A program made the translations under genes and the position numbers. Shown here in pieces: positions 43,785 through 60,261 of a stretch of 64,000 bases of DNA. The notes beneath the pieces are model-generated. The model ran no database searches. It was not told where the DNA came from and saw only the letters and a list, made by a program, of their open reading frames with translations. How positions within the stretch are numbered: the first letter of the stretch is position 1; the number at the start of each line of letters is the position of its first letter. The DNA is from Thermococcus sp. M39. GTDB taxonomy: Archaea; Methanobacteriota_B; Thermococci; Thermococcales; Thermococcaceae. The DNA lies in assembly GCF_012027325.1 (NCBI RefSeq), contig NZ_SNUG01000001.1, forward strand, positions 124,001-188,000, read 5' to 3'.

Positions 43785-44009
43785 TCATTCCTCCCACGCT
43801 TTTAGGACATCTTCCCATGCCTTTAGAATTTCCTCGGCAGTTTGCTTATCGAGCTTCTCTATTGCGAAACCCGTGTGAACTATAACATAGTCGCCAACTT
43901 TAACGTCTGAGAGCAAATCTAAGCGAGCCTCTCTCTTTACTCCTCCAAAATCAACAATCGCAACGTTTCCGTTGATTTCAAGAACTTTAGCTGGAACTGC
44001 CAAACACAT
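43785..44009 (-). CDS. hypC: Hydrogenase maturation chaperone HypC
   Basis: The 74-residue protein begins MCLAVPAKV. Cys2 is the residue that carries the Fe ligand complex with HypD. ATG 44009 follows AGGTGAG; an earlier start would bury Cys2 inside the chain and is rejected. DYVIVHTGFAIEKLD is the family motif. The tail contains a small direct duplication (KAWEDVLKAWEE). A TATA-like TTTAAAAA near 44041 on the minus strand drives hypCD. Confidence 0.95.
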   Translation of the reverse strand: MCLAVPAKVLEINGNVAIVDFGGVKREARLDLLSDVKVGDYVIVHTGFAIEKLDKQTAEEILKAWEDVLKAWEE

Positions 44010-44177: not shown

Positions 44178-44209
44178 TTTTTTATATCACGCTGATGACT
44201 AAGCAGTCA
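44178..44209 (+). promoter_or_regulatory. tetR promoter with operator TGACTAAGCAGTCA
   Basis: The TATA box TTTTTATATC lies at 44178-44187. Inverted repeat TGACT-AAGC-AGTCA spans 44196-44209, over the expected start of transcription. The same motif TGACTnnnnAGTCA recurs in front of the formate dehydrogenase gene, which points to autorepression by the TetR product. Confidence 0.7.
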
Positions 44210-44232
44210 GTATAAATTGGGGAGTGCTGGGC

Positions 44233-44784
44233 ATGGATACCAGAGAGAAGATTTTAAAAGCCGCAAGAGAGCTCTTTGCTGAAAAGGGCTACGACAAAAC
44301 TACTGTCGATGAAATTGTTGAGCGGGCAGGAGTTGCTAAAGGCACTTTTTACAACTACTTCAAGAGCAAAGAGGAGCTTATAAAAATTGTTGCTCTTCAG
44401 TCTTTGCCTTATTCTGCAATAAGAGAAGAGCTTGAGAAGGAACACGAGAGCCTTACGGAATTTCTACACAGTATTGCAAATGCATATATTGTATATTACT
44501 GTGATCCAGTCTTACGCTCCCTGTTCTTCTACACACTAGCCGTGAAGAGCAAGATAAAGGAAGTTGAGGAAATTCACAAGACATTCTGCACGGAGGCTAT
44601 TTCCAAGGGTGCTAAAAAGATATCACAACTTGCAAATGTAGATGAAAAAACCGCTATGGTTGTTTTTAAGGCGTTCTATGGCGCTCTACTTTCAAGATTG
44701 ATCTTTGTTGAGTACTTGTGCACTCCAGATGTCGATTATGTCTCGGAAATTATCAGATTGATAGAGAAAAGTTTGAAAAATTAA
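44233..44784 (+). CDS. TetR family transcriptional regulator
   Basis: A 183-residue regulator with a TetR helix-turn-helix at the N-terminus (ILKAARELFAEKGYDKTT, DEIVERAGVAKGTFYNYFKS) and a helical ligand-binding part, which has three cysteines. TetR proteins usually repress and are released by a small ligand; the ligand here is unknown. ATG 44233 lies 9 bases downstream of GGAG; an in-frame GTG at 44224 would add three residues. It sits between hypCD and the formate dehydrogenase operon, and its probable operators occur at its own promoter and at that operon. Confidence 0.9.
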   Translation: MDTREKILKAARELFAEKGYDKTTVDEIVERAGVAKGTFYNYFKSKEELIKIVALQSLPYSAIREELEKEHESLTEFLHSIANAYIVYYCDPVLRSLFFYTLAVKSKIKEVEEIHKTFCTEAISKGAKKISQLANVDEKTAMVVFKAFYGALLSRLIFVEYLCTPDVDYVSEIIRLIEKSLKN

Positions 44785-45075
44785 CACATTAAAAAGGAAT
44801 ATTTTAAATATTTTTTTGCATAATCTCATTTTTTCTGAGCATATTTGTACATTTGAACATTGTTGCTAAAAGTTAGTAAACAGGATTACTAATGGATTTT
44901 TATAATGTTAATTAGTTTGTTTTAAGTGAACAATGCTCTTTTGTATACATCTTAATGTTGCGCTCCAAAGTGCAACTTCATGTACACGGAATGTTACCCA
45001 TTTTAGCATTTTCATGTTAGTTTGAATAATATAATTTAAATAGAATTGCAAAATTTATAACATATTGTCAGTAAT

Positions 45076-45089
45076 TGACTAAATGGTCA
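45076..45089 (+). promoter_or_regulatory. Distal TetR-type operator TGACTAAATGGTCA
   Basis: The site matches TGACTnnnnAGTCA with one mismatch in the right arm. It lies about 50 bases upstream of the formate dehydrogenase TATA box and 104 bases from the proximal operator. Confidence 0.6.
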
Positions 45090-45140
45090 TAAATTTACAT
45101 CAAAAAATCAACTATGTGTATAACACAACGTAAGGAAAAA

Positions 45141-45193
45141 ATATTTAAATGGTTCATTGCTTACCATATCCGAATAAACTGACTAGTCAGTCA
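45141..45193 (+). promoter_or_regulatory. Formate dehydrogenase operon promoter with proximal operator TGACTAGTCAGTCA
   Basis: TATA box ATATTTAAAT at 45141-45150; perfect TGACT-AGTC-AGTCA at 45180-45193, just downstream of the expected transcription start. A regulator bound here would block RNA polymerase. Confidence 0.7.
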
Positions 45194-45213: not shown

Positions 45214-47277
45214 ATGGCAGAGAAGCTTGTGCCAGTAGTATGTCCATGGTGTTCTGTTGGTTGTAGGTTCTATATAGTAAGCGTCAATGGATATCCTAAG
45301 AAAATTGAGTTCGATTATGAGCATGATACCAGGAACCATGGCAAGCTTTGTCCAAAAGGTGTTTCCTCATTCCAGTACCTCAGACATCCAGACAGGCTTA
45401 AGAAGCCCCTCAAGAGAGTTGGCGAAAGAGGTGAAGGTAAGTTCGTCGAGATAAGCTGGGAAGAGGCAATTAGGGAAATTGCGCAGAAGCTTAAAGAAAT
45501 AAGGGAGAAATACGGTCCTGAGGCTCTTGCTTTTCTCGGAAGTGAGAGGTGTTCCATAGAGGAGAACTATGTCCTCCAGAAGCTGGCTAGAGCTTTGGGA
45601 ACCAACAACCTTGACTACGTTTGTAGAATGTGTCAGTCAACGGCCGTCGCCGGCAAGGGAATGGTTCTTGGGCATCCTGGCCTGACGAATCCATTCGAGG
45701 ACATTCTCAAGGCCAAGGTCATTGTTCTCTGGGGATACAATCCAGCCGCAACTAATCCGGTCTTCTTCGGTCAGTACATTGAGAAGGCAATTCTCGACAA
45801 TAACGCCACTCTCATTGTCGTTGACCCAAGGAAAACGAAGACCGCCAAATACGCGGACATACACCTGCAGCCGTATCCCGGAACCGACCTTGCTGTTGCC
45901 TTGGCTATGCTCAACGTCATAATCACTGAGGAGCTTTACGACAAGGACTTCGTGGCGGAGCGCGCGGAAGGTCTTGAGGAGCTCGCTAAGACCGTTGAGA
46001 AGTACACTCCAGAATGGGCCGAGAAGGTCAGCGGTGTTCCGGCTGAGCTCATAAGGAAGGCCGCAATTACCTTTGCGACTGCTGGAACTGCCGCCTTGCT
46101 GACGAACGAGGGTGTTAACCAGCATGCCAACGGAACGAGGACAGTTATGGCCCTCACCGAGATGATGGTTCTCTGCGGCTACTTCGGAAAGGAGGGCGTT
46201 ATGTCTGGAGCCATACCAGGTGCCCACAACGGTATGGGTGCTGGACTCATGGGTATTGAGCCAGATGCACTGCCAGGAAAGTTCCCACTTCACGCTGAAG
46301 AGCACAAGAAGAGAATTGAGGAAGTATGGGGCTTCGAGATTCCGGAGAAGCCTGGAATAACTTACGTCGAGATGATTGACGCAATCCTTGAGGGTAAGCT
46401 CAAGGCTCTCTACGTTATGGGAACTAACCCAGCAAAGTCCCTCCCGAACCTAAAGAAGGTTGAAGAAGCGTTTAAGAACATCGAGTTCCTCGTTGTCCAA
46501 GACATCTTCCTCACTGAAACCGCGAGATACGCCGACATAGTTCTTCCAGCTGCCGCTTGGTTCGAGAAAGATGGAACTGCTATAAGCTTCGAGAGGAGGG
46601 TTCAGAGGAGCTTTAAGGCTGCTGATGCACCAGGAGAGGCCAAGCCAGACTGGGAGATTATCGTAATGCTCGCGAAGGAGCTCGGCCTTGGGGAGTACTT
46701 CAACTACTCCGACGTAGACGACATCCTGAGGGAGATAAACAGAACGATTCCACCCCTTGCTGGCGCGACACCCGAGAGGCTCAAGAAGAACCTCCAAGGC
46801 TGTATGATACCGTGTCCAGACGAGAGCACCGAAACACCGAGGCTTTTTGTCCAAGGCTTCCTGACGCCAAATGGAAAGGCTCAGCTCATCCCCGTGGAGT
46901 ATAAAGAGCCTGGAGAGGTTCCTGACGAGGAATATCCCTTCTGGCTCACCAACTACAGGCTTGTTGGCCACTTCCACACTGGAACCATGAGCCACAGGAG
47001 CAAGAGCCTGAGCAAGAGGTGGCCGGAGGAGTACATTGAGATCAACGAGAACGACGCGAAGAGGCTCGGCATAAAGGACGGCGACCTCGTAAAGGTCGAG
47101 ACCAGGAGGGCAGCGCTGGTTCTCAAGGCTAGGGTCACGCCGCACATTAGAGAAGGCGTTGTCGCTGTTCCATGGCACTGGAACTTCAACTACCTGACCA
47201 AGGACGTTCTCGATGAGTATGCCAAGATGCCCGAGCTGAAGACAGCCGCTTGTAGAATTTCTAAGGTTGAGGGGTGA
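45214..47277 (+). CDS. fdhA: Formate dehydrogenase catalytic subunit (Mo/W-bis-pyranopterin enzyme)
   Basis: The 687-residue protein belongs to the molybdopterin oxidoreductases. Cys10, Cys13, Cys17 and Cys46 (CPWCSVGC and KLCPKG) bind one 4Fe-4S cluster. Cys140 in CRMCQS is the expected metal ligand, at the place of selenocysteine 140 in E. coli FdhH. The neighbouring residue is Gln, not the usual His. GTNPAKSLPN and the C-terminal pterin-binding part (HFHTGTMSHRS) are standard. It should oxidise formate to CO2 and pass electrons to the ferredoxin-like subunit. ATG 45214 follows GGGTGGTG. It opens a 15-kb operon under TetR-type sites. Confidence 0.9.
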   Translation: MAEKLVPVVCPWCSVGCRFYIVSVNGYPKKIEFDYEHDTRNHGKLCPKGVSSFQYLRHPDRLKKPLKRVGERGEGKFVEISWEEAIREIAQKLKEIREKYGPEALAFLGSERCSIEENYVLQKLARALGTNNLDYVCRMCQSTAVAGKGMVLGHPGLTNPFEDILKAKVIVLWGYNPAATNPVFFGQYIEKAILDNNATLIVVDPRKTKTAKYADIHLQPYPGTDLAVALAMLNVIITEELYDKDFVAERAEGLEELAKTVEKYTPEWAEKVSGVPAELIRKAAITFATAGTAALLTNEGVNQHANGTRTVMALTEMMVLCGYFGKEGVMSGAIPGAHNGMGAGLMGIEPDALPGKFPLHAEEHKKRIEEVWGFEIPEKPGITYVEMIDAILEGKLKALYVMGTNPAKSLPNLKKVEEAFKNIEFLVVQDIFLTETARYADIVLPAAAWFEKDGTAISFERRVQRSFKAADAPGEAKPDWEIIVMLAKELGLGEYFNYSDVDDILREINRTIPPLAGATPERLKKNLQGCMIPCPDESTETPRLFVQGFLTPNGKAQLIPVEYKEPGEVPDEEYPFWLTNYRLVGHFHTGTMSHRSKSLSKRWPEEYIEINENDAKRLGIKDGDLVKVETRRAALVLKARVTPHIREGVVAVPWHWNFNYLTKDVLDEYAKMPELKTAACRISKVEG

Positions 47278-47282
47278 TTTAA

Positions 47283-47780
47283 ATGGGCAAGAAGATATTT
47301 ATCGATTTTAGGCGCTGCATCGCCTGTAAGGCTTGTGAAGTTGCTTGTGAGATGGAGCATGGAGAGGCTAGAATTAGGGTTTTTGAGTTCCCCGACTTGA
47401 CCAGCGTTGCCTTCAACTGCCGCCACTGTGAAAAGGCTCCGTGTATGGAAGTCTGTCCTGTCAACGCGCTCTCCAAGGACGAGGATGGCGCAGTTATTCT
47501 CGATCCCCTCAAGTGTATCGGCTGTCTTATGTGTGGTCTTGCATGTCCATTTGGTGTTCCAAAGGTAGACGAGTACAACAAGATAATGGACAAGTGCGAT
47601 CTCTGTGCTCACCGCAGAGCAGAAGGAAAGCTCCCTGCCTGTGTCTCAGCGTGCCCAACTGAGGCTCTCAAGTACGGTGACATAAACGACGTTCTCTGGG
47701 CTAGAGAAGGAAGGATAATCGCTCAGCTCAAGGACATCGGCGACAGGACTAATGTCCTCGAGGCGTACATCATTAGGTGA
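47283..47780 (+). CDS. Four-cluster ferredoxin-like electron transfer subunit (HycB/FdhB type)
   Basis: The 165-residue protein has sixteen cluster cysteines in four groups: CIACKACEVAC, CRHCEKAPCMEVCP, CIGCLMCGLACP and CDLCAHR followed by CVSACP. This is the polyferredoxin that links formate dehydrogenase with a membrane hydrogenase in formate hydrogenlyases. It starts 6 bases after fdhA and runs into the next gene's leader. No membrane helix is present, so it should sit on the cytoplasmic face. Confidence 0.93.
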   Translation: MGKKIFIDFRRCIACKACEVACEMEHGEARIRVFEFPDLTSVAFNCRHCEKAPCMEVCPVNALSKDEDGAVILDPLKCIGCLMCGLACPFGVPKVDEYNKIMDKCDLCAHRRAEGKLPACVSACPTEALKYGDINDVLWAREGRIIAQLKDIGDRTNVLEAYIIR

Positions 47781-47794
47781 TAGGAGGTGCTGAG

Positions 47795-49246
47795 ATGAAC
47801 GCCTCTCTCTTCATCATCTCTTTTTTGATTCCACTGCTCTTCGGTCCGTTTCTGTTCAAATTAGATGGTAGAAAGGCTGATGTCTTCATGCTTATTGCGG
47901 TTGTGTCTTCTTTCTTGGCTAACCTAGCGGGAGTTATTGAGTATTTAAATGTGGGTGGCTCTTATCACATCGTTTACCTCAAAACTTCTTCCCTCGGTGA
48001 GGTCTACGGCATTATAATTGACCCGATGAGCGTTTTGGTGGGCTTCGTTGTTAGTCTCGCGGGTGTTCTGTTCCTCCTCTACGCGGTTGACTACATGAGC
48101 GAGAAGAACAAACAGCACCCCGTTTACTCCGATAAGGGTAGGTTCTACGCTTGGATGGTCATCTTTGTTGGAGCTACGCTGGCCTTCATATACTCCTCCA
48201 CGACACTCCAGCTGCTCATATTCTTCGAGATAATGGGACTCGCCTGCTGGGGTGTTGTTGGCTATTATAAGAGTTCAAAAGCCGAGAGAGCTGCATACAA
48301 GGCTCTGCTCGTGCCGAACTTCGGTGCGATGGTTGGTCTTTATACTGCTGTTGGTATTGGCATCCTCAAGCTTCATGATCTGAGCCTTTATGCTCTTCAG
48401 AACCTGAGCGACGACCTTAAGCTTCTGGTCTTCTTGGGCATAATGGTTGCTGCTTTCACTAAGAGCGCCCAGTTTCCACTCTACTCATGGCTTCCGGATG
48501 CAATGGCGGCCCCAACACCTGCTTCTGCTTTTCTCCACGGTGCGGCAATGATTGAGATGGGTGTATACCTGCTCGCCAGGGCTGCCCAGTTCATGCAGCC
48601 GATTCCAGAGACAGCTTTCTACGTCATGCTGGCCTTCGTCTCGCTGACTTTACTCATAGCGATTCTTTATTACCCACTTCAGAAGGACGCCAAGAGGCTT
48701 TTAGCTTACTCCACTATAGCAGAGGCTGGAGTGATGTATGTCGGTGTGCTCTATGCTGTGCTCGGCTCCGCCTACGGCCTTCAAGCCGCGATGTTCCAGC
48801 TGGCTAACCATGCGTTTGTTAAGGGTTTAGCTTTCCTCACTGCGGGAACCTTCAGCTACGCCTTTGGAACGCTTGACATGGAGAAGATTAAGGGTCTTGG
48901 AAAACTCGCTCCCGTCGTCGGTGCAAGCTGGTTCCTGGCCCTCCTTGGATTGGCTGGAGTCCCTCCGCTCGGCCTGTTTTTCAGCAAGGCCTACCTCTTC
49001 ATCAACGCCTCAGCGACAACTGACTGGGTCGGGTGGATTCCGCTCCTCCTCGTACTGGCAGATGCGACGGTTTTCCTCATGGTGTCACTCGGATGGATTA
49101 AGAGGATGGTCTTCAGCGAGCCAGCGGTGGAGAGTGCGGAAGTGTCCCCGCTGATGCGCTTTGTCCTTGTGGTTCTAATAGTCCTCGCCATAGTTGCCCC
49201 GTTCCTAAGCATGAAGCTCGTGACCAAGATAAGCTTCGTGGGGTGA
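47795..49246 (+). CDS. Proton/sodium-conducting membrane subunit (NuoL/HyfB/MnhD-like), hydrogenase module
   Basis: A 483-residue protein with about 14 membrane helices of the antiporter-like family of complex I. Key features are the Glu in helix 5 (IFFEIMGLACWG), the Lys in helix 7 (FTKSAQFPLYSWLPDAM), and HGAAMIEMGVYLLAR with its broken helix. It probably moves H+ or Na+ when the hydrogenase works. ATG 47795 follows TAGGAGGTG. It is the first of two such subunits in the operon before the antiporter genes. Confidence 0.9.
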   Translation: MNASLFIISFLIPLLFGPFLFKLDGRKADVFMLIAVVSSFLANLAGVIEYLNVGGSYHIVYLKTSSLGEVYGIIIDPMSVLVGFVVSLAGVLFLLYAVDYMSEKNKQHPVYSDKGRFYAWMVIFVGATLAFIYSSTTLQLLIFFEIMGLACWGVVGYYKSSKAERAAYKALLVPNFGAMVGLYTAVGIGILKLHDLSLYALQNLSDDLKLLVFLGIMVAAFTKSAQFPLYSWLPDAMAAPTPASAFLHGAAMIEMGVYLLARAAQFMQPIPETAFYVMLAFVSLTLLIAILYYPLQKDAKRLLAYSTIAEAGVMYVGVLYAVLGSAYGLQAAMFQLANHAFVKGLAFLTAGTFSYAFGTLDMEKIKGLGKLAPVVGASWFLALLGLAGVPPLGLFFSKAYLFINASATTDWVGWIPLLLVLADATVFLMVSLGWIKRMVFSEPAVESAEVSPLMRFVLVVLIVLAIVAPFLSMKLVTKISFVG

Positions 49247-49252
49247 TGTGAG

Positions 49253-51232
49253 ATGATTGAAATACCCATTGCGCTCTACTCAATCTCAGCGGTTTCTGGT
49301 CTTATTGGGGACTTTAAGAGGAGCATCAAGGTTTCGAGTGTCCTCTCTGCTGTAGCATCCTTGTCGCTCATAGGCATAGTTGCGGATGCATTATCCAAAG
49401 GGCTTCCTGTTCAGGAGAGCTTCTTGGGTGTATCTCTCACGATAGACAGCATCTCCCTTCCATTTCTCTTCATCCTTGCACTCCTCAGCCTCGTGGTTTC
49501 AGTATACTCTTTTTCATATATGGAAGTCCATAGAGACGTGGAAAGACCCTTTGCTTACACGCTCCTCTACGGCACGTTTGTAGTATCGATGGTGTTCGTG
49601 GTATTGGTTTCAAACTTGCTTTGGTTCGTTTTCTTCTGGGAGCTGATGACGCTGACGTCTTTCGTCTTTGTGAGCTGGAAGGAGCAGAACGCTGGGATTA
49701 AGTACCTCCTCACAATGCAGCTCGTCAACACGGTACCCCTATTTATAGCCCTCGGAGTAATCTACTCCGCCACAGGAAGCTTCATCGTTGACTATGCCAC
49801 CCTTAAGGATGTCGTAGTGTCACTCTCCTCGACTCAGCTCAGGCTACTCTACGTGATGTTCCTCGTGACGTTCCTTGCAAAATCCGGAAGCGTGCCCTTC
49901 CAGTTCTGGGTACCTGATGCCTATGAGGCTGCTCCTAGCAACATAGCCTCCCTGATGGCTGGAGCCATGGAGAAGATGGCAGTTTACGGCCTGATAAGGC
50001 TCCTCTGCAACGTCCTTCCGTGCAATGAGACCATCGGCTATGTCCTCGTTATCATCGGAATACTTACCATGACCTTCGGCACCCTCTACGCCCTTAGAGA
50101 GACCCACGCGAAGAGGCTCCTTGCCTATTCAAGCGTTGGTCAGATGGGTTACATCTGGTTCGCGGTGGGCATGGGTATGGTCTTCTTAGCAAAGGGCATG
50201 GAGAGCCTGGCTTACCTGGCCTTCCTCGCCGGAGTCTTCCACTCCTTCAATCACACCCTCTTCAAGGGGCTACTCTTCCTTATCTCTGGCAACTTCGAGT
50301 ACTCTGCAGGTACGGCAGACCTCAATGAGCTGGGCGGTCTGAGGAAGGCAATGCCATACTCATCGCTCTTCACTGTTATAGGCGCGCTTTCCCTCGCTGG
50401 AGTGCCCCTCTTCAGCGGCTTCCTCTCCAAGTGGATGATTTACCAAGTAGGCTACTACTCTGGAATCTCTCTCTTTGTCCTCGGTTCAGTTATGGCAGTG
50501 TTCATGAGTGCTGTAACCCTAGCGTATTCGCTCAAGCTTTACACATCTGCTTTTGGAGGTGAACCAAACAAGAAAATAGAAAACGCCGAGGAAGTTCCCT
50601 TAGGAATGCTCCTCGCCGAGGGGATACTTGCCATAATGTCACTCGCGGTTGGAGTCTTCCCAGCCATCGCTTATCCGATACTGACGGTTTCGCTGGAGGG
50701 GAACAGCGTTACAGTTACCGTTGACTCTATATTCACTGGCTTTGAGTACTTCTCACCAATAGCCCTGCTCCTTGCGGTTTCATTCGTTGCAGTTGCTTTG
50801 TACTTTGTCCTTAGACCAAAGACGACCGATGTCAAACCTTGGAACGTGGGAGCTCTCTTTCTCCCAGAAGAAAGATACGGAGCAAAGGCTAGGGACTATT
50901 ATGAGCAGTACTTTAGTGAAATGGAGGGTGTGTATAAACTTGGAAAAACCGCTGGTATGGTCGGAAAGGTCATTCTTTCAGCTTTACTATCTTTTTATCT
51001 CATCCTTGCCAAGGGACTCGTATATACAGGCAGAGAGAAAAAGCGCTCTTTCACCCTCAGTGAGCTTCGTCATCACAGCGCTAGATACCTAGACGAGGCA
51101 TTCTTTGTTCCGATAATGGACTTGGTCAAGAACATTGTTGTGCTAATTTCTGGCATTTCAGTGTCCATGGATGATCTCTTCTTGGCCTCAATGCTGACTA
51201 CGGCAATAATACTTGCACTCTTGGTGCTGTGA
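49253..51232 (+). CDS. Second antiporter-like membrane subunit (HyfB/NuoL-like) with C-terminal extension
   Basis: A 659-residue membrane protein of the same superfamily as the preceding one. Helix 5 has the acidic residue (FVFFWELMTLTSFVFVSW), and helix 7 the Lys (FLAKSGSVPFQFWVPDAYEA). Residues after about 480 form an extra part with further helices, and a soluble stretch (RYGAKARDYYEQYFSEMEG) recalling the lateral arm of HyfB/NuoL. In formate hydrogenlyase-type complexes this subunit completes the ion pump. Start follows GGGGTGATGTGAG; the gene lies 6 bases after its neighbour. Confidence 0.9.
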   Translation: MIEIPIALYSISAVSGLIGDFKRSIKVSSVLSAVASLSLIGIVADALSKGLPVQESFLGVSLTIDSISLPFLFILALLSLVVSVYSFSYMEVHRDVERPFAYTLLYGTFVVSMVFVVLVSNLLWFVFFWELMTLTSFVFVSWKEQNAGIKYLLTMQLVNTVPLFIALGVIYSATGSFIVDYATLKDVVVSLSSTQLRLLYVMFLVTFLAKSGSVPFQFWVPDAYEAAPSNIASLMAGAMEKMAVYGLIRLLCNVLPCNETIGYVLVIIGILTMTFGTLYALRETHAKRLLAYSSVGQMGYIWFAVGMGMVFLAKGMESLAYLAFLAGVFHSFNHTLFKGLLFLISGNFEYSAGTADLNELGGLRKAMPYSSLFTVIGALSLAGVPLFSGFLSKWMIYQVGYYSGISLFVLGSVMAVFMSAVTLAYSLKLYTSAFGGEPNKKIENAEEVPLGMLLAEGILAIMSLAVGVFPAIAYPILTVSLEGNSVTVTVDSIFTGFEYFSPIALLLAVSFVAVALYFVLRPKTTDVKPWNVGALFLPEERYGAKARDYYEQYFSEMEGVYKLGKTAGMVGKVILSALLSFYLILAKGLVYTGREKKRSFTLSELRHHSARYLDEAFFVPIMDLVKNIVVLISGISVSMDDLFLASMLTTAIILALLVL

Positions 51233-51242
51233 GGTGATGAGG

Positions 51243-52145
51243 ATGGATTATGTAAGTTTAATTGCTGCTCCAATAGTCATTTTCCTCCTTCCTCCACTCC
51301 TTGATGGAATAGGACGAAAAATAAAGGCAAGGATTCAATACAGGAGAGGTCCACCGATAATGCAGACATTCTACGACCTTGAAAAGCTGCTCAAGCTACC
51401 GTCAGTGCTTCCAACCGAGAACCTTATCTTCAGATTAGCACCCTATATCGCACTGGCTTCTGCTGTTGCTGGAGGATTAATGCTTCCCTTTGGTAAAGAA
51501 CCAGTATTAGCCTTTGGAAAAAGCCTCATAGTTTTCTTCTACGTTATGACAATGGTCAGCGTGGCTATGGTGTTAGCAGCTTTCTCCGTCCAGAATGCGT
51601 TCTCGCACATAGGAGGACATAGGGAGGTTATGCTGATACTTTCGATTGAGCCAGTGTTGGCCAGTGTCTTCGGTGTCCTAGCATTCAAACTTGGAACACT
51701 CAACGTTGCCGAGATGCCCTTCAGTGTTGGTCTTTCACTTTCCGTTGCCCTCGCTTACATCCTGCTGGCTTACGCGGTCTATGTTGAGGGTGGTTTCGTA
51801 CCTTTTGATATAGCCGAGGCAGAGACCGAGGTAATTGGAGGGCCTCTCACCGAGTACAGCGGGAGACTCCTTGGGATATTCAAGTACTCCCTTCTAATAA
51901 AGAGGATAGTACTGCTCTGGCTACTGTCTTCATTGGTCATGATTCCCGCTCTGGATTTCCTCGGTATAACTAGCTCTATAGTAGTGTTTATCGCTCAACT
52001 TGTCATGACTTTCTTGTTGTATTCACTTGCTGTGGCATTAGAGGCTGCAAATGCTCGTTTGAGAATTGACCAAGCAGTTTCCCTGAATAAGAAGATATTC
52101 CTCATGTCCCTGGTTGTTTTGTTAATAGCGTTAGCGGGGTGGTGA
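51243..52145 (+). CDS. Membrane anchor subunit of the hydrogenase (NuoH/HyfC-like)
   Basis: A 300-residue protein with about eight helices of the NuoH/HycD family: RRGPPIMQTFYDLEKLLKL is the cytoplasmic loop that touches the peripheral arm, and VPFDIAEAETEVIGGP is the family's acidic loop. It joins the [NiFe] module to the ion-pump subunits. Two ATGs are in frame close together; ATG 51243 has GAGGTGAT at better spacing. The codon use is more AT-rich than the neighbours. Confidence 0.93.
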   Translation: MDYVSLIAAPIVIFLLPPLLDGIGRKIKARIQYRRGPPIMQTFYDLEKLLKLPSVLPTENLIFRLAPYIALASAVAGGLMLPFGKEPVLAFGKSLIVFFYVMTMVSVAMVLAAFSVQNAFSHIGGHREVMLILSIEPVLASVFGVLAFKLGTLNVAEMPFSVGLSLSVALAYILLAYAVYVEGGFVPFDIAEAETEVIGGPLTEYSGRLLGIFKYSLLIKRIVLLWLLSSLVMIPALDFLGITSSIVVFIAQLVMTFLLYSLAVALEAANARLRIDQAVSLNKKIFLMSLVVLLIALAGW

Positions 52146-52148
52146 ATT

Positions 52149-53900
52149 ATGGAGTGTAGCGTGTGTGCTGGTGGATGCAAATCTGCTGAAGTTGATGAGA
52201 CTCTTGAGGATGGTCATCTGAGGAAGTTTGTGGAGAAATTCAAAGAAGTTATTTTTGAATGTAAAAAGCTTACGAGAAACCAGTACTTGTTCGTAGTCGA
52301 TAAGAACGCCCTTCCAGAAATGGTGCTCTACTGGCACAACAACTCTGAGCTAAAAGAGACTCACTTCTCGATGGGAATTGGAACTGACGAAAGGAGCATT
52401 GCTGGAAAGTTTGCATACGCTCCGGTGATAAACGTTACCGTTGAGCCTGGAAATGGAGATAAGAACTACTGGGTTATCTTGAAAGCATATCTTGACGAGG
52501 ACAACCCTGAATTTCCGTCAATAGCTGCAGAGCTTCCAGCTGCACTCTGGGCAGAGAGGGAGGTTTACGATCTTCTTGGCTTTAACCCTAAAGGTCATCC
52601 TGACTTAAGGAGGCTTGTCCTGCCTGAGGACTGGCCTGAGGGTGTTTATCCACTCAGAAAAGATCACGACTACAAAGCATCTCCGATGGATACTCCCAAG
52701 TGCTACTACAAGCCTGGACCACCAGACACCATGACAGTTCCGATAGGTCCTTATCATCTTGCACTAGATGAGCCAGCTCACTTTAGAATATTCGTCAAGG
52801 GAGAAACAGTAGTTGACGTTGATTACCGTGGCTTCTACTCCCATAGAGGAGTTGAGAAGATAGGAGAAGGGAGGCTGACCTACAACCAGGTTCTCTTCAT
52901 AGCTGAGAGAATCTGCGGAATCTGTGGCTTTCAGCATTCAACGAGCTATGCTCAAGCAGTTGAGAACATTGCTGGTGTTGAAATTCCTGAAAGGGCAATG
53001 TACATAAGGACGATAATGCTCGAGATCGAGAGGATCCATTCCCACATGCTTTGGGCTGGCGTTGCTGCACACCTAACAGGATTTGATACTGGATTCATGC
53101 ACGCTTGGCGCGTCAGAGAGCCAGTCATGTGGCTCGCAGAGAGGCTTACAGGGAACAGAAAAACCTACGGAATCAACATCGTTGGTGGCGTCAGGAGGGA
53201 CTTCCTCGACTACCGCAAAGAGATGATAATGGAGAAGATTAAGGAGCTCAGAAGGCAAGTTGAGGAGTTTATCGAGATAGCGACCGGTACGGCAACCTTT
53301 GTCAAGAGGGCTGAGGGAGTTGGAATTCTGCCGTACAAGGTGGCCAAGGCTTACTCAGTCCTCGGTCCGAACGGAAGGGCCAGCGGGAGGAACATTGACG
53401 TTAGGAGAGACCAGCCCTTCGCGGCATACAAGGATCTGGACTTCAAGGTGCCAGTTTACAAAGAGGGTGATGTTTTAGCCAGATTCCTCATCAGAATGGA
53501 CGAGGTTCTTGAGAGTATCTGGATAATTGAGCAGGCCATTGATCAGATGCCAGGAGGAGACGTCTTCGTACCAATAGGCGAGCTCCCGGAGTATGAGGAG
53601 GGTCTCGGCTACAGCGAAGCTCCAAGAGGTGAGGTCATCCACTACGTTATGACTGACAAGAAGAACAAGGTCTATCGCTGGAAGGTTAGGGCTCCAACTT
53701 ACAACAATCTGCCAGCAGTTCCGGAGATGCTCAAAGGCTACAGCGTTGCCGATGCTCCTCTTATCATAGCGAGCATTGATCCGTGCTACTCCTGTACTGA
53801 GAGAGTCCAGATAGTGGACGTTGAGACTGGAAAAGCTAAGGTTCTGAATGAGCAGCAGTTCAACATGCTCTCAATACAGAAGGGCAAGGGGGTGGCATAA
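52149..53900 (+). CDS. Large subunit of membrane [NiFe] hydrogenase, fused NuoC-NuoD type (HycE-like)
   Basis: The 583-residue protein has a NuoC-like part (about 30-165, with WAEREVYDLLGFNPKGHPDL) followed by the large subunit. Both Ni-binding motifs are intact: RICGICGFQHS (Cys256, Cys259) and DPCYSCTER (Cys546, Cys549). This marks it as a true hydrogenase and not a complex I relative. It should reduce protons to H2 with electrons from formate. The N-terminus MECSVCAGGC has three extra cysteines not usual for the family. HypC and HypD encoded upstream fit its maturation. Confidence 0.95.
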   Translation: MECSVCAGGCKSAEVDETLEDGHLRKFVEKFKEVIFECKKLTRNQYLFVVDKNALPEMVLYWHNNSELKETHFSMGIGTDERSIAGKFAYAPVINVTVEPGNGDKNYWVILKAYLDEDNPEFPSIAAELPAALWAEREVYDLLGFNPKGHPDLRRLVLPEDWPEGVYPLRKDHDYKASPMDTPKCYYKPGPPDTMTVPIGPYHLALDEPAHFRIFVKGETVVDVDYRGFYSHRGVEKIGEGRLTYNQVLFIAERICGICGFQHSTSYAQAVENIAGVEIPERAMYIRTIMLEIERIHSHMLWAGVAAHLTGFDTGFMHAWRVREPVMWLAERLTGNRKTYGINIVGGVRRDFLDYRKEMIMEKIKELRRQVEEFIEIATGTATFVKRAEGVGILPYKVAKAYSVLGPNGRASGRNIDVRRDQPFAAYKDLDFKVPVYKEGDVLARFLIRMDEVLESIWIIEQAIDQMPGGDVFVPIGELPEYEEGLGYSEAPRGEVIHYVMTDKKNKVYRWKVRAPTYNNLPAVPEMLKGYSVADAPLIIASIDPCYSCTERVQIVDVETGKAKVLNEQQFNMLSIQKGKGVA

Positions 53901-54517
53901 TGGCCCAGACGATTTCATTCACTGACAGGCTCAAGTTCTGGAAGAGACCAGAGGAGGAAGTTAAGAAAGCTCCCGTTACTACACCATATCCCTTTGTTGA
54001 CATCGAAAAGCCGCCTGAATACAGGGGAATACCCTACATAGATCCCCATCTCTGCATCGGTTGTGGCGCCTGTGTTAGGGCCTGTCCACCAGACGCGCTC
54101 ACGATAGAGTGGGACTTTGAGAATGGGAGGAAGAGAATTGTCTTCAATGCAGCGCGCTGCATAAGGTGCCACCGCTGCGTCGAAGTTTGTCCAACCGGTG
54201 CGATGCAGGGCACAACGAGGTTCGAGATAGCAACACCGAACAAGGAGGACCTCATCGAGGTTGTTGACCACAAGCTCTACAGATGTCCGCGCTGTGGGAA
54301 GTACGAGGAGTTCACGGAGAGGCAGATACAAAAGATGTTCCAGATTCTTCCGAAGGAAGTCATCGACCAGCACGGCATAGCCGAGAGAGCTTTTCTCTGC
54401 AGGGAGTGCAGGATGGAGGAGAGTGCTAAGACCTTGGCGGTTCAAGGTCCCTATGCGGATAGCCTTCTCCTTTCCCTCTATCCGAGAGGTTCAAAGGTGA
54501 TGGGTGAGAGGAGATGA
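53900..54517 (+). CDS. NuoI/HycF-like 2x[4Fe-4S] subunit with extra C-terminal CxxC pairs
   Basis: The 205-residue protein has two ferredoxin motifs: CIGCGACVRACPPDAL and CIRCHRCVEVCPTGAM. Residues of about 130 to 175 add CPRCGKYEEF and FLCRECRM, likely a zinc or rubredoxin-like knuckle. It should wire electrons between the ferredoxin subunit and the small hydrogenase subunit. Overlaps the neighbours on both sides by 1 and 4 bases. Confidence 0.93.
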   Translation: MAQTISFTDRLKFWKRPEEEVKKAPVTTPYPFVDIEKPPEYRGIPYIDPHLCIGCGACVRACPPDALTIEWDFENGRKRIVFNAARCIRCHRCVEVCPTGAMQGTTRFEIATPNKEDLIEVVDHKLYRCPRCGKYEEFTERQIQKMFQILPKEVIDQHGIAERAFLCRECRMEESAKTLAVQGPYADSLLLSLYPRGSKVMGERR

Positions 54518-55314
54518 GCAGGTTGAAGTCTGTTTGGGTCTTCCATGTTGACAGCGGCTCATGTAATGGTTGCGACATCGAGATACTCGACGTGCTCACG
54601 CCATACTACGACGCCGAGAGGCTGGGAATAAAGCTTGTGCCGAGCCCAAGGCATGCAGACGCCCTTCTCGTCTCGGGCCCGCTAACGAGGCAGACTTATT
54701 ACGCTGTCAAAGCAGCCTACGAGGCAATGCCGCCAAAGCCAAGGATAGTTGTGGCTATAGGCACCTGCGCGTCCAGCGGTGGTATATTCTACAATGGATA
54801 TCCAATCTACAATCCGAACCCGGAGAGGGGAAGTGACAGGCTCAGGACTGGTGGAATAGAGGTTCTTTTAGCGGAATACGGGAAAAAGCCCGATATGTAC
54901 ATCCCGGGATGTCCACCAAGTCCAGAGGAAATACTCTACGGGTTGGCTCAGCTCCTCGGCCTGAAGGAGAAAAAGATGAAGGGTGAGTACTACTATGCAG
55001 ATGAGATTGAGTTCATTTTGCCTGACAGACCTATTGAGGAAAGGATTTATCTGACACTCAGAGAATCCCTGAGGCGCGTTGTGGGTTACTTCGATAGAGA
55101 GAAAGTTCTTGAAGATTTTATGCAACTTGTAAAGAAGGCCCAAGAGAGCGAGAACCCGAGAGAGAGGCTCCACGAGCTTGTCATTGGCTACTTCTTGAAG
55201 GAGAAAGATTCCCGCGTGAAGTTCGCGATAAGATTTCTCGAAAACGAATACTGGAGGTTGAAGGATGCCTACGAAAAGAGGCACATGGCACTTGTTAAAG
55301 CTAGTATACGTTAA
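54514..55314 (+). CDS. Small subunit of membrane [NiFe] hydrogenase (NuoB/HycG-like)
   Basis: The 266-residue protein has the four ligands for the proximal 4Fe-4S cluster: SCNGCDIEIL, IGTCASSGG and PGCPPSPEE. It carries electrons to the Ni-Fe site of the large subunit. The C-terminal 110 residues form a helical extension (LREYFDREK-like VGYFDREKVLEDFMQLVKK) not present in simple NuoB. The start overlaps the NuoI-like gene by ATGAGC/TGA. Confidence 0.93.
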   Translation: MSRLKSVWVFHVDSGSCNGCDIEILDVLTPYYDAERLGIKLVPSPRHADALLVSGPLTRQTYYAVKAAYEAMPPKPRIVVAIGTCASSGGIFYNGYPIYNPNPERGSDRLRTGGIEVLLAEYGKKPDMYIPGCPPSPEEILYGLAQLLGLKEKKMKGEYYYADEIEFILPDRPIEERIYLTLRESLRRVVGYFDREKVLEDFMQLVKKAQESENPRERLHELVIGYFLKEKDSRVKFAIRFLENEYWRLKDAYEKRHMALVKASIR

Positions 55315-55570
55315 TCCTCCATATATTTCTAAGGCTATGGCACACTTCGCTGGCGACATGGCTGTGCTAGAGGAGCTGGGGACGCTTAAGGAGAAAACAG
55401 TTGAAGTAATCAAGGAAAGTCTTGGAACAAAAAGAGACGAAATAGACCTGTCCATAAGCGACCTGATACTGATACCAGTGGAAAGGCTGCCCGAAGACGA
55501 TAGGAAGCTCCTCTTAAAGGTTGCCCAGGAGCTTGAGGGAGATGCCAAACTCAAGATAGTGAGGAGGTGA
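55265..55570 (+). CDS. Small conserved-looking protein of the hydrogenase operon, overlapping the NuoB-like gene
   Basis: A 101-residue soluble protein (HFAGDMAVLEELGTLKEKTV, DLILIPVERLPEDDRKLL) without cysteines or membrane helices. I do not recognise a family. Its ATG follows GGAGGTTGAAGG, so the 50-base overlap with the preceding gene seems real; a later start would lack a ribosome site. It sits exactly between the hydrogenase and antiporter blocks, and may be an assembly or interface subunit. Confidence 0.7.
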   Translation: MPTKRGTWHLLKLVYVNPPYISKAMAHFAGDMAVLEELGTLKEKTVEVIKESLGTKRDEIDLSISDLILIPVERLPEDDRKLLLKVAQELEGDAKLKIVRR

Positions 55571-55574
55571 TAGT

Positions 55575-55859
55575 GTGAGCCTTGAGTCCCAGTTCTTTCT
55601 GCTTATGAAGTTCGTGATACCAATTTACCTGTTAGCATTCATCCTCTACGCTGTTAGGGCATTTAAAGGCCCAACGATAGTAGACATAGTCCTTGCCGTT
55701 GACTGTCTGTCCTTTGATGTAGCTGCGTTCATGGCTATCCTTGCAGTTTACTTCAGGAGCGTCTTCCTTGTGAGCGGGGCGATGATTCTAGCGCTCTGGG
55801 GCTATTTGCTGGACATTTACATAGCAAAACACTTGGTGAGCAGGGAGGTGGGAGCATGA
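55575..55859 (+). CDS. mnhF: Mrp Na+/H+ antiporter subunit MnhF
   Basis: A 94-residue protein with three membrane helices and the MrpF motif RAFKGPTIVDIVLAVD. It starts with GTG behind GAGGTGATA. It is the first of the seven Mrp-type genes that extend to 59678. The complex should exchange Na+ for H+ and turn the proton gradient from the hydrogenase into a sodium gradient for ATP synthesis. Confidence 0.9.
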   Translation: MSLESQFFLLMKFVIPIYLLAFILYAVRAFKGPTIVDIVLAVDCLSFDVAAFMAILAVYFRSVFLVSGAMILALWGYLLDIYIAKHLVSREVGA

Positions 55860-56209
55860 GCGTTCTGTTCTACGTTGGGGCAGTCCTCATCGTCATAGGC
55901 GCGCTCTGTGACTTGTTTGGTGCTTTGGGTCTGCTCCGCTTCCCGAACTTCTACGTTAGGATGCACGCTGCTACAGTGGGGATAATTGGCGGCGCTGCGG
56001 TTCCGCTCTTCGGCGTTGCCCTGCTTGCTCTTGGTGCGGACTTCCTTCATCATAGATACGCGATTGCCGGAGCGAGCTTCATCACTGGAGTGATAGTTCT
56101 CTTAGCCTCTCCAGCTGGAAGCCACGCCCTGGCCTACGCCGCTCATAAGGCCAAGCTTGTCCAGAGGCCAGAGATTGACCATTTGGCAGAGGTGAGGGGT
56201 GATGATTGA
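55856..56209 (+). CDS. mnhG: Mrp antiporter subunit MnhG
   Basis: A 117-residue protein with three helices and the MrpG signatures LFGALGLLRFPNFYVRMHAAT and VLLASPAGSHALAYAAH. It overlaps mnhF by ATGA. Confidence 0.92.
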   Translation: MSVLFYVGAVLIVIGALCDLFGALGLLRFPNFYVRMHAATVGIIGGAAVPLFGVALLALGADFLHHRYAIAGASFITGVIVLLASPAGSHALAYAAHKAKLVQRPEIDHLAEVRGDD

Positions 56210-56456
56210 AATTCATCTGTTAATCCTCAGCCTTGCTCTCATGCTCGGCTTCGTTGCCAGCTATCTAGCTGTGACTGAGAAGGATCTGCTCAAAGCGGTC
56301 GGATTTTCGGCAGTGCAGGCCATAGCTTACGCCATAGCCTTCTACATCCTTATGGCTCCCGACATTGTCCTCGCCTACATAGCGATAGCCGTGGGAATTT
56401 ACTCTGCCCTGCTGATATTTGCTATCAGCAAGACCGAGAGATACGAGGTGGTGTGA
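56202..56456 (+). CDS. DUF4040 subunit (MbhD-like; C-terminal piece of MrpA)
   Basis: An 84-residue membrane protein with three helices and LLKAVGFSAVQAIAYAIAFY plus PDIVLAYIAIAVG, equal to the DUF4040 part of MrpA and to MbhD of Thermococcus hydrogenases. ATG 56202 lies within the end of mnhG and behind GGTGAGGGGTG. In archaea MrpA is split into small subunits, of which this is one. Confidence 0.87.
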   Translation: MIEIHLLILSLALMLGFVASYLAVTEKDLLKAVGFSAVQAIAYAIAFYILMAPDIVLAYIAIAVGIYSALLIFAISKTERYEVV

Positions 56457-57230
56457 ATGAGGAGCAAGAGTCTAATTACTGCCATTGCAATCCTCACCTT
56501 CGCTGCACTCATGACTTATGCCGTGGTATCTCTCGGTATCTTTGGTGATGGTACTGGGATTAGGCCCCTTGGTGAGTTCTATCTTGAGAACAGCTACTTT
56601 GGTGATTACTCGGCTAAGAGTCCGGAGGTTGTTACCTCAATTCTCTGGGACTATCGTGGTGTTGATACGCTCTTTGAGACTGCTGTCTTCTTCCTCGCCA
56701 TAATAGGTAGCCTTACCGTCTTTAGGCTCACCAAAGAACAGGAGAAGGAAGTTAAAAAGGCTGAGAAAGCCCCAACTGAGCTGACACCAATAGTGAAGGA
56801 CGTCACGAAAGTAATAGTCGTCATGATTCTTGCTGTTTCAGCTTCGATTGCTTTGCATGGTCATTTGACTCCTGGTGGTGGTTTCCAGGGTGGTTCAGCC
56901 CTAGCAGTAGCGCCTCTCCTCATCATCGCTGCTTATTCAAAGTATACCCTCGAGGAGAATGGCCTCGATAAGACGAGAGCATTAATCCTGCGTTCTATTG
57001 GTCTCTTAGGAATTGCATTGACTGCACTGGTTCCACTATTAACTGGTGGTTTCATCATGCAGAATCAACCAATATTCCCTGCCGAGCTCGATGGACAACT
57101 CATCGGCGGCTCACTGATTTACTACAACTTCTTCGAGTTTCTTGCGGTGGGAGCAGGCTTTACAGCAGTATTCCTGCTCTTAGCAATTCCAGAAGAGAAG
57201 TTCAAGAAAATCCTGGGGGTGAAAAAATGA
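56457..57230 (+). CDS. mnhB: Fused MbhE-MbhF-like / MnhB antiporter subunit
   Basis: The 257-residue protein joins two parts. Residues 1-100 resemble MbhE (the MrpA end piece, with SILWDYRGVDTLFETAVFF). Residues 115-257 are MnhB proper, with HGHLTPGGGFQGGSA and FFEFLAVGAGF. A charged linker (KEQEKEVKKAEKA) lies between. In the Mbh hydrogenases these are two genes. The bases for the HGHLTPGGGFQGG core use AT-ending codons, unlike the flanks. Confidence 0.88.
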   Translation: MRSKSLITAIAILTFAALMTYAVVSLGIFGDGTGIRPLGEFYLENSYFGDYSAKSPEVVTSILWDYRGVDTLFETAVFFLAIIGSLTVFRLTKEQEKEVKKAEKAPTELTPIVKDVTKVIVVMILAVSASIALHGHLTPGGGFQGGSALAVAPLLIIAAYSKYTLEENGLDKTRALILRSIGLLGIALTALVPLLTGGFIMQNQPIFPAELDGQLIGGSLIYYNFFEFLAVGAGFTAVFLLLAIPEEKFKKILGVKK

Positions 57231-57619
57231 GCATCTTGGAGTTCCTGTGGGATTATCTCTGGGTCGTCCTCCTGCTCACCTTGGCTGTCTCGCTGTACGG
57301 TATAATCGCCAGGCCGAACATGCTGAAGAAAATCATATCGCTCACGATACTCGGTGATGTTGTTAACGTCATGGTAGTCTTCATAGGCTACCGCCTCACT
57401 TATCCAGTGGTCCCGCCGATACTGCCGTCCCTTTCAAAGGAATCCCTCAGTCAGTTTGTGAACACTGCCGTTGACCCGCTTCCACAGGCCCTTGTCATAA
57501 CCGCCGTAGTCATAGGAATGGCCGTGAACATGCTCTTGGCTGTGCTGACGATACAGCTCTACCGTCTCTACGGCACGCTCGACGTCAGGGAGATAGCTAA
57601 GAGAGGTGGTGAGGAATGA
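57227..57619 (+). CDS. mnhC: Mrp antiporter subunit MnhC (NuoK-like)
   Basis: A 130-residue protein with three helices in the NuoK/MnhC manner: YGIIARPNMLKKIISLTILG and DPLPQALVITAVVIGMAVN. It overlaps both neighbours by 4 bases (ATGA). Confidence 0.92.
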   Translation: MSILEFLWDYLWVVLLLTLAVSLYGIIARPNMLKKIISLTILGDVVNVMVVFIGYRLTYPVVPPILPSLSKESLSQFVNTAVDPLPQALVITAVVIGMAVNMLLAVLTIQLYRLYGTLDVREIAKRGGEE

Positions 57620-58101
57620 GGGGCGTCCTTCCAACTGCTTTACTTGCCTTTATTACCTACGTGCTCTTCACGGGCTCTGCCACTCCCTACGACCTGTTCA
57701 CGGGTGCAATTGTCGCCGTGGGTGTAGGACTGCTAATGGGTAAATATGTCGTCCAGAGCGACGCTAAGGCATTGAACCCGGTAAGGTGGTTCTGGAGTAT
57801 TGTTTACTTCATCTGGTACATGCTCGTGGCCGAGACCAAGTCTCACATTGACGTAATACGCAGAATAATTACTGGCAACTACAATCCTGGAATAGTTAAG
57901 GTTCCCGTTGATGTCGAGACGAGCTACGCGAAAACGCTCATCGCCAACTCAATAACCAACACCCCGGGAACATATGTGGTCAACATGGATGAGAAGTACC
58001 TCTACGTGCACTGGATTGACGTAGCAACTGAAGATCCTGAAAAGGCAAGGGAAGAAATCTCCGCCGACTTTGAGAGGTTCGCGAAGAGAATACTGGAGTG
58101 A
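57616..58101 (+). CDS. mnhE: Mrp antiporter subunit MnhE
   Basis: The 161-residue protein has two or three N-terminal helices and the MnhE core IVYFIWYMLVAETKSHIDV, then SITNTPGTYVVNMDEKYLYV. Its start codon overlaps the mnhC stop. Confidence 0.92.
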   Translation: MRGVLPTALLAFITYVLFTGSATPYDLFTGAIVAVGVGLLMGKYVVQSDAKALNPVRWFWSIVYFIWYMLVAETKSHIDVIRRIITGNYNPGIVKVPVDVETSYAKTLIANSITNTPGTYVVNMDEKYLYVHWIDVATEDPEKAREEISADFERFAKRILE

Positions 58102-58112
58102 GGTGAGAGGAA

Positions 58113-59678
58113 ATGGACGTTGTAGGATTAACTCCCGTGATCCCGGTCATCTTTGCCTTTGCACTCCCTCTGACTTCGATCATCGTTAAGGGTAACAGGA
58201 AGATAATCCAAGCCTATGCACTACTCGGCACGGGTTTAACCTTAATCAGCGCGCTCAAGCTTTTCGAACTAGTGTACTCCTCTGAAAAGCCGCTGATATA
58301 TACTTTTGGCGGCTGGACTGCTCCAATTGGCATAATCTATGAGGTTGACAGAACTGGGGCACTCATAACTCTCCTCACCGCCGCGCTGATGTTCCTCATT
58401 GCAATTTACAGCTACCGCTATCTTGAGCACGAGGAGGGTTTGGAGTGGTACTATACACTTTATTTAGGCTTGGAAGCTGGACTTTTGGGTGTTTTACTCA
58501 CTGGTGATGCTTTCAACCTCTTCGTCATGATTGAGGTCACCAGCATTGCCGCCTACGCTCTAGTGGCGTTCTACAGGGGAAGGAAGGACGCAGTTCATGC
58601 TGCATTGAAGTATGCCTTCATAGGCGCGATAGGCACGACTATGTACTTCTTAGCGCTTGGAATTCTCTACGGGGCTTTTGGTACGGTTAATCTTGCTGAT
58701 TTATCGGCAAAAGTTCATGGTTTGAGTTTTCCAGTGACTGGCAGTCCAGTTGGGAATATTGTAATTGCCTCTGGTGTTGCTTTAGCCTTAGCCACTTGGG
58801 CGTTTTTAATTAAAGCGGCAATTGTGCCGAATCACTTCTGGCTTCCGGAAGCTCACCCAGCGGCACCAAGCCCAATTTCAGCAGTCCTCTCCGGATTAGT
58901 CGTTAACGTCGGAGTTTATGCCCTGATTAGATTCCTCTACACGGTCTACGGTGGTGAACTCACACCGGGTCTGGCAAAAATCGTTGGAACCCTGGGGACA
59001 GTAGTCATAACCCTCGGTGCGGTTTCGGCACTTTTCGGTGCACTCATGATGAACGCCCAGAGGGACGTTAAGAAGCTCATAGCTTACTCCACGATAATGC
59101 ACATGGGCTACCTCTTCATGGCTGTTGGATTAGGAACACAATTAGGCTTACAAGCAGCATTATTCCACATTGTCAACCATGCCATTGCCAAGGCATTACT
59201 CTTCCTTGCTGCGGGCATGTTCATCCACGCCGTTGGCTCAAGAGACATCAATGATATGGCTGGTTTGGGCAGGCAGATGCCAATGGCAACTCTCGGACTC
59301 GCAATAGCAACCCTCAGCCTCGTAGGAATTCCACCGTTCAACGTGTTCTTCAGCAAGCTGCTCCTCTTTGATGCCCTGATGGAGAGAAGTTTTGCTTTGG
59401 CAATGGTCATTGTGGTCAGCTCTGTGACGGCACTCGTTGCCTACATGCGCGTCTTCTACAAGGTATGGCTTGGCAAACCAACCAAGGACGTCACAGTGAA
59501 GGAACCAGTAAGCATGAGCCTAGTGGTTCTTCTGCTGGCAGCGACGGTTATTGTAATAGGTCTCGTTGCACCGATAGTGCTCCAAAACTACATAGAACCT
59601 GCAGTAGCCCAGACAGTGAATTATAAACTATACATTCAGACTGCACGTGAATATGCGTTAAGGTTAAAACTCCCCTAA
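58113..59678 (+). CDS. mnhD: Mrp antiporter subunit MnhD (NuoN/NuoM-like)
   Basis: A 521-residue protein with about 14 helices. FNLFVMIEVTSIAAYALVAF carries the helix-5 Glu, FLIKAAIVPNHFWLPEAHP the helix-7 Lys, and HIVNHAIAKALLFLAAG the helix-12 region. It is the main ion-translocating subunit. GAGGTGAGAGG precedes the ATG. Codon use changes along the gene: AT-ending blocks (around 58440-58830 and 59125-59215) alternate with GC-ending ones. Confidence 0.92.
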   Translation: MDVVGLTPVIPVIFAFALPLTSIIVKGNRKIIQAYALLGTGLTLISALKLFELVYSSEKPLIYTFGGWTAPIGIIYEVDRTGALITLLTAALMFLIAIYSYRYLEHEEGLEWYYTLYLGLEAGLLGVLLTGDAFNLFVMIEVTSIAAYALVAFYRGRKDAVHAALKYAFIGAIGTTMYFLALGILYGAFGTVNLADLSAKVHGLSFPVTGSPVGNIVIASGVALALATWAFLIKAAIVPNHFWLPEAHPAAPSPISAVLSGLVVNVGVYALIRFLYTVYGGELTPGLAKIVGTLGTVVITLGAVSALFGALMMNAQRDVKKLIAYSTIMHMGYLFMAVGLGTQLGLQAALFHIVNHAIAKALLFLAAGMFIHAVGSRDINDMAGLGRQMPMATLGLAIATLSLVGIPPFNVFFSKLLLFDALMERSFALAMVIVVSSVTALVAYMRVFYKVWLGKPTKDVTVKEPVSMSLVVLLLAATVIVIGLVAPIVLQNYIEPAVAQTVNYKLYIQTAREYALRLKLP

Positions 59679-59704
59679 CCTCTTAAATTTTTGGAGGTGC
59701 TGAA

Positions 59705-60124
59705 ATGAGTATTGAAGAAGCAAAGCAAAAGCTTTTCCAGCGGATAACGGAGTTCTACGGTGATAATTTGCTCTCTGTGGTCTTCTATGGGGCTCACCTG
59801 AAGGGCAAGCTCAATGAGATTGACGTCCTCGTGATCATTGACAAACCCTACGACCCAGTCAAGCTCAACCGCGTGGCGGACTTCATAGAGAATATTAAGG
59901 AGCCTGTTGAGAGGGAGTATGGTTACTTTATAGCTTTTGAACTCTACACAAGAGAGGAGGCGGAAAACTTTCACGCGTCTTATCTTGACATTGCAAAAGC
60001 TTATGAAGTAGCATATGATAAAGGTGATTACTTCAAGAACCTTTTAAGGAGAATGACTCATCCAGACACATCTATGGAGCATATAAAGTACCTCACAACT
60101 ATTGAGATTTTAAAGGACGAATGA
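59705..60124 (+). CDS. Degenerate nucleotidyltransferase-like (MNT) domain protein
   Basis: A 139-residue soluble protein resembling minimal nucleotidyltransferases: LLSVVFYGAHLKGKLNEIDVLVIID. The usual GS motif is GA, and the DxD pair is D-V-L-V, so catalysis is doubtful. It starts 26 bases after mnhD behind GGAGGTGCTG and may be the last gene of the operon. It could instead be the antitoxin-like half of a lost pair; I see no HEPN partner. Confidence 0.65.
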   Translation: MSIEEAKQKLFQRITEFYGDNLLSVVFYGAHLKGKLNEIDVLVIIDKPYDPVKLNRVADFIENIKEPVEREYGYFIAFELYTREEAENFHASYLDIAKAYEVAYDKGDYFKNLLRRMTHPDTSMEHIKYLTTIEILKDE

Positions 60125-60261
60125 TTTTCGAAATTCCTATTTTTCTGTCTTAAACCTTTAGTTGAACACCTACCGTTTTAAAAAGCGTTAAAAATTGCCA
60201 TTTTAATTCTCATTTGATAATACAAAATCTAAAATCAGTAGCACAAATGGTGGTGAAATTT

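Follow-up and report, generated by a model that had tools for sequence, protein, structure and literature searches.

Among the described systems closest to the locus analysed here is the 'Group 4' class of fhl operons of Holden & Sistu 2023. In the sections of that report considered here (PMC10025317), every one of these operons but one has a TetR gene ~350 nt upstream and in the same direction, and the class further lacks a SurR site, an adjacent hydrogenase operon and a formate transporter gene. According to the same sections, it is unknown by what mechanism those formate dehydrogenase operons of Thermococcales that are not under SurR are regulated. For archaeal TetR proteins more generally, FadRSa is known to recognize operators of 14-16 bp with dyad symmetry (PMC6449355).

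The window, that is, the whole 64-kb stretch of DNA analysed, resembles Group 4 as the consulted sections define it (PMC10025317), in that a TetR/AcrR gene lies a few hundred nucleotides upstream of the operon in the same direction and no SurR motif precedes fdhA. The end of tetR and fdhA are separated by 430 nt (the annotation covers some of the window genes). The statement in the sequence-only reading that TetR control had not been described for such clusters was therefore too strong, as the presence of tetR ahead of Group 4 fhl operons was already reported there, without an operator. Since the sections seen give no operator, mechanism or regulon for Group 4, what is new here is an operator candidate together with comparative support for a known tetR-fhl gene association. 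The features concerned are as follows.

43785-44009: hypC, read from the sequence; hypC and hypD lie divergently upstream of tetR.
44178-44187, forward strand: tetR TATA box TTTTTTATAT, identified by sequence and kept in close relatives.
44196-44209, no strand assigned: O1, TetR operator candidate TGACTAAGCAGTCA, no mismatch, between the tetR TATA box and the expected start site.
44233-44784, forward strand: tetR, 183-aa TetR/AcrR-family regulator (Pfam TetR_N PF00440, 1.5e-22).
45076-45089, no strand assigned: O2, distal TetR operator candidate TGACTAAATGGTCA, one mismatch, 104 bp before O3.
45140-45149, forward strand: fdhA TATA box AATATTTAAA, identified by sequence.
45180-45193, no strand assigned: O3, main TetR operator candidate TGACTAGTCAGTCA, no mismatch, in the fdhA start region.
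45214-47277, forward strand: fdhA, formate dehydrogenase alpha subunit and first operon gene (NCBIfam TIGR01591, above cut-off).
47283-60124, forward strand: remaining predicted operon, with genes for a ferredoxin-like subunit, a membrane hydrogenase and an Mnh-type antiporter, and a last conserved small gene.

The assignment of 47283-60124 as an operon is based on open reading frames, Pfam/NCBIfam matches for some of them and a gene order conserved in relatives. Its last gene (59705-60124, 139 aa) has no Pfam match and follows the fhl/antiporter genes in relatives also. Downstream, a 728-aa open reading frame (60214-62400) reads as two tandem periplasmic binding (BtuF-like) domains and is followed by a BtuC-like permease frame, both judged from translation only.

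The 183-aa protein has both an N-terminal TetR_N helix-turn-helix domain and an all-helical fold, as expected of the TetR/AcrR family; its AlphaFold2 model (pLDDT 93) matches TetR-like structures in the PDB. The effector is not settled by the fold, because the Foldseek matches are generic TetRs with differing ligands. Identity as a FadR/acyl-CoA regulator was rejected, the protein scoring 44.8 bits against an NCBIfam equivalog cut-off of 200. A scan of a collection of genome contigs for this TetR gave matches to distant bacterial TetRs only.

The palindrome TGACY-N4-RGTCA, whose inner arm positions were relaxed to Y/R on the suggestion of the sites of relatives, has exactly three matches in the 64 kb, at 44196, 45076 and 45180. 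These positions, and the single mismatch at 45076, are those given in the sequence-only reading, and two of the sites do lie just downstream of TATA boxes as it had described, O1 after 44178-44187 and O3 after 45140-45149, with O3 34 bp before the fdhA ATG. A further TATA-like element, AATTTATAAC at 45052-45061, is found upstream of O2. The genome (2.28 Mb) contains five copies of the exact motif; the three besides O1 and O3 fall within coding frames, so they are not expected to mark additional regulon members. The chance of the motif estimated from shuffles was ~3e-4 per 100-bp promoter. With up to two mismatches, however, the window contained 24 matches against 33 expected from shuffles, which is not significant, and with one mismatch the whole genome contained 58 against 46 for the control; both counts are what would be seen if the sites were chance palindromes in AT-rich intergenic DNA. 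As the mismatch count within the window was unconvincing, a comparative test was needed, and the significance of the sites has to come from their position and conservation across fdhA promoters. Separately from the TetR sites, ATTTTAGCATT is present within a conserved non-coding stretch at 45000-45010, ~210 bp before fdhA; it is invariant across eight close loci (169 bp before fdhA in L002, which has a deletion) and was not found upstream of fdhA in the more divergent loci of the alignment.

Thirty tetR loci were fetched, with fdhA contained in the same stretch in 29 of them. A site was present 30-35 bp before fdhA in all 29 loci beside this TetR. In the thirtieth, G004, a convergent tetR is located ~15 kb away, at the opposite end of the operon, and both fdhA sites are kept at the 104-bp spacing of the window, the proximal one at -36, so that the motif is conserved in 30/30 operons. 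Lack of conservation at the orthologous operons, which the sequence-only reading had named as grounds for giving up its proposal, was thus not what the search showed. The tetR promoter carries the site in 25 of the 30 loci and lacks it in the other five. The TetRs of these relatives show identity to the window protein down to 34%, with the recognition-helix region invariant, and little of the promoter sequence can be aligned from one lineage to another; against this divergence the sites stand out as islands.

The same association was seen genome-wide. Of the 94 family genomes, 39 contain the strict form TGACYRGTCAGTCA, with 62 copies in total; when their coordinates were compared with those of TetR and fdhA, every copy was placed at the fhl locus. 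The reversed control pattern had two matches in all 94 genomes together. A profile search detected the window-type TetR in these 39 genomes and in none of the rest, and the co-occurrence gave a Fisher p = 2.4e-27, a value that is too generous because the 94 genomes share ancestry. FdhA homologues are found in 86 of the 94 genomes, indicating that the site goes with this TetR rather than with fdhA generally. Consistently, no site was found in the promoter of an fdhA paralogue of 74% identity in the window genome itself or in four other fdhA paralogue promoters checked. One locus (L186, genome G039) has a second fhl operon with TGACTAGTTAGTCA at -33 before fdhA and no tetR recognized in the fetched stretch; this paralogue may be a target in trans.

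Since the palindrome is common to both promoters and its strict form is confined to genomes carrying this TetR, the TetR gene very probably controls both the fhl cluster and itself. Matching sites before both tetR and the adjacent operon (O1 and O3 in the window; 25/30 and 29/29 loci) are what a local autoregulated TetR would have. We consider it likely that the protein encoded at 44233-44784 is such a repressor, acting over the tetR and fdhA promoters. The sites, where they lie and how they are conserved along with the TetR gene were observed; from this we infer binding, repression and release as follows. A TetR homodimer would bind the TGACY-N4-RGTCA palindrome over two promoters, that of tetR (O1) and that of fdhA (O3), in the latter case perhaps helped by O2 104 bp upstream. 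In archaea the start site is located roughly 25 bp after the TATA box, and by this geometry O1 and O3 should obstruct the polymerase: bound TetR would cover the DNA just downstream of the TATA box and block RNA polymerase. An effector acting on the C-terminal domain would then release TetR and derepress the formate-hydrogenlyase/antiporter operon. The link between TetR and the formate-hydrogen operon, the autoregulation and the repressor-like position, all proposed in the sequence-only reading, are strongly supported by the comparison of sequences.

Other explanations of the sites were weighed against this model. That they are chance palindromes, as the relaxed counts in the window and the genome would allow, is refuted by their fixed position in 30/30 operons and their perfect co-occurrence with TetR in 94 genomes, leaving this explanation hardly conceivable. 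Co-occurrence alone cannot name the binder, and further TetR-like proteins are present in these genomes, so that the sites might be bound by a different protein co-inherited with the locus by coincidence; yet the strict site is found only in TetR genomes, at tetR itself and also where tetR has moved, which makes a different binder very unlikely. The five tetR promoters without the site and the fact that no more than half of the close relatives have O2 intact count against the repressor model. Finally, TetR proteins can also activate, which counts against it too, and the same TetR might activate the operon, or activate from O2 and repress from O3. The location of O2 upstream of the fdhA TATA box is a possible activator position, and its spacing to O3 is conserved at 103-104 bp. 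However, TATA boxes precede both O1 and O3, and repression is the mode of action of most TetR proteins, so activation seems unlikely to us, and the autoregulated repressor is preferred.

For that repressor, the contribution of the distal site was considered. O2 is intact in four of the eight close loci and is present also in the distant G004 operon. The 103-104 bp between O2 and O3 (window, L004, L008 and G004) corresponds to about ten helical turns and would place both on one face of the DNA; cooperation between O2 and O3, or a second promoter, are both possible. In G088 (L002), which has a deletion there, the spacing is 60 bp. This deletion has removed the proximal window-type fdhA TATA box, and O3 and a form of O2 remain.

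In a second lineage (most loci of L014 to L030), an extra copy of the site is found upstream of tetR, flanked on one side by a hypC-like gene and on the other, in loci that have one, by a DUF302 gene, as in the following example.

L018:971-984: operator-like site between the hypC-like gene and the DUF302 gene.

At L025 no DUF302 gene is recognizable and the site is still present, which suggests that the extra site also serves hypC. No copy corresponding to it was found in the window.

As to the effector, formate had been proposed as inducer, so that TetR would release the operon when formate is present, and the controlled operon does encode a formate dehydrogenase. On the other hand, expression of Group 4 fhl falls on formate compared with maltose or peptides, and in T. 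paralvinellae the Group 4 fhl transcripts go down on formate, according to the consulted sections of that report (PMC10025317), with which the proposal sits badly. In T. onnurineus, the Fdh1 proteins were found in sulfur-grown and not in formate-grown cells (PMC4463584), which would also speak against formate if these proteins are orthologous. Formate is thus a weak candidate, and its role as inducer is improbable. A part in formate-driven growth, also suggested at first, is doubtful, as T. onnurineus needs only the fdh2 cluster for it (PMC5522443). Induction of fhl by cadmium, described for T. gammatolerans, was set aside because it concerns the transporter-linked operon.

Two conserved cysteine residues keep a thiol/redox signal possible as effector: Cys119 is invariant among 30 aligned TetRs, of which 29 also have a cysteine near residue 163 (counted from the alignment). 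The reported rise of the T. onnurineus Fdh1 proteins on sulfur (PMC4463584) would fit such a signal, if they are orthologous. On this basis one may speculate, with rather little confidence, that a second formate-hydrogenlyase is under a thiol-sensing TetR, released by a sulfur/redox signal via the two cysteines and working in the opposite sense to SurR, that some Thermococcales would thus have two fhl operons under opposing sulfur/redox switches, and that hypC and DUF302 are co-regulated in one lineage.

With a defined operator, one candidate regulator and genomes both with and without the two, the regulation of non-SurR fdh operons becomes a directly testable question, and a compact switch is on offer for hydrogen-producing strains. 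Compared with the known systems, SurR (GTTn3AAC) controls hydrogenase operons in Thermococcales, and the consulted sections of the 2023 report predict that the transporter-linked fhl operons of these archaea are under SurR as well (PMC10025317). SurR is of the ArsR type, whereas the window regulator is of the TetR type and no GTTn3AAC is present in the 400 bp before fdhA, for which reason SurR control of the window operon was rejected. FadRSa and FadR control fatty-acid genes and answer to acyl-CoA, whereas the window TetR adjoins fhl. The site of Thermus thermophilus FadR, a bacterial member of the TetR family, is TTRNACYNRGTNYAA, similar in kind to the window operator, and FadRSa of Sulfolobus acidocaldarius, a repressor of the TetR family, has a short operator of dyad symmetry that is found at the promoter of its own gene as well (PMC6449355), as is proposed here for the window TetR.
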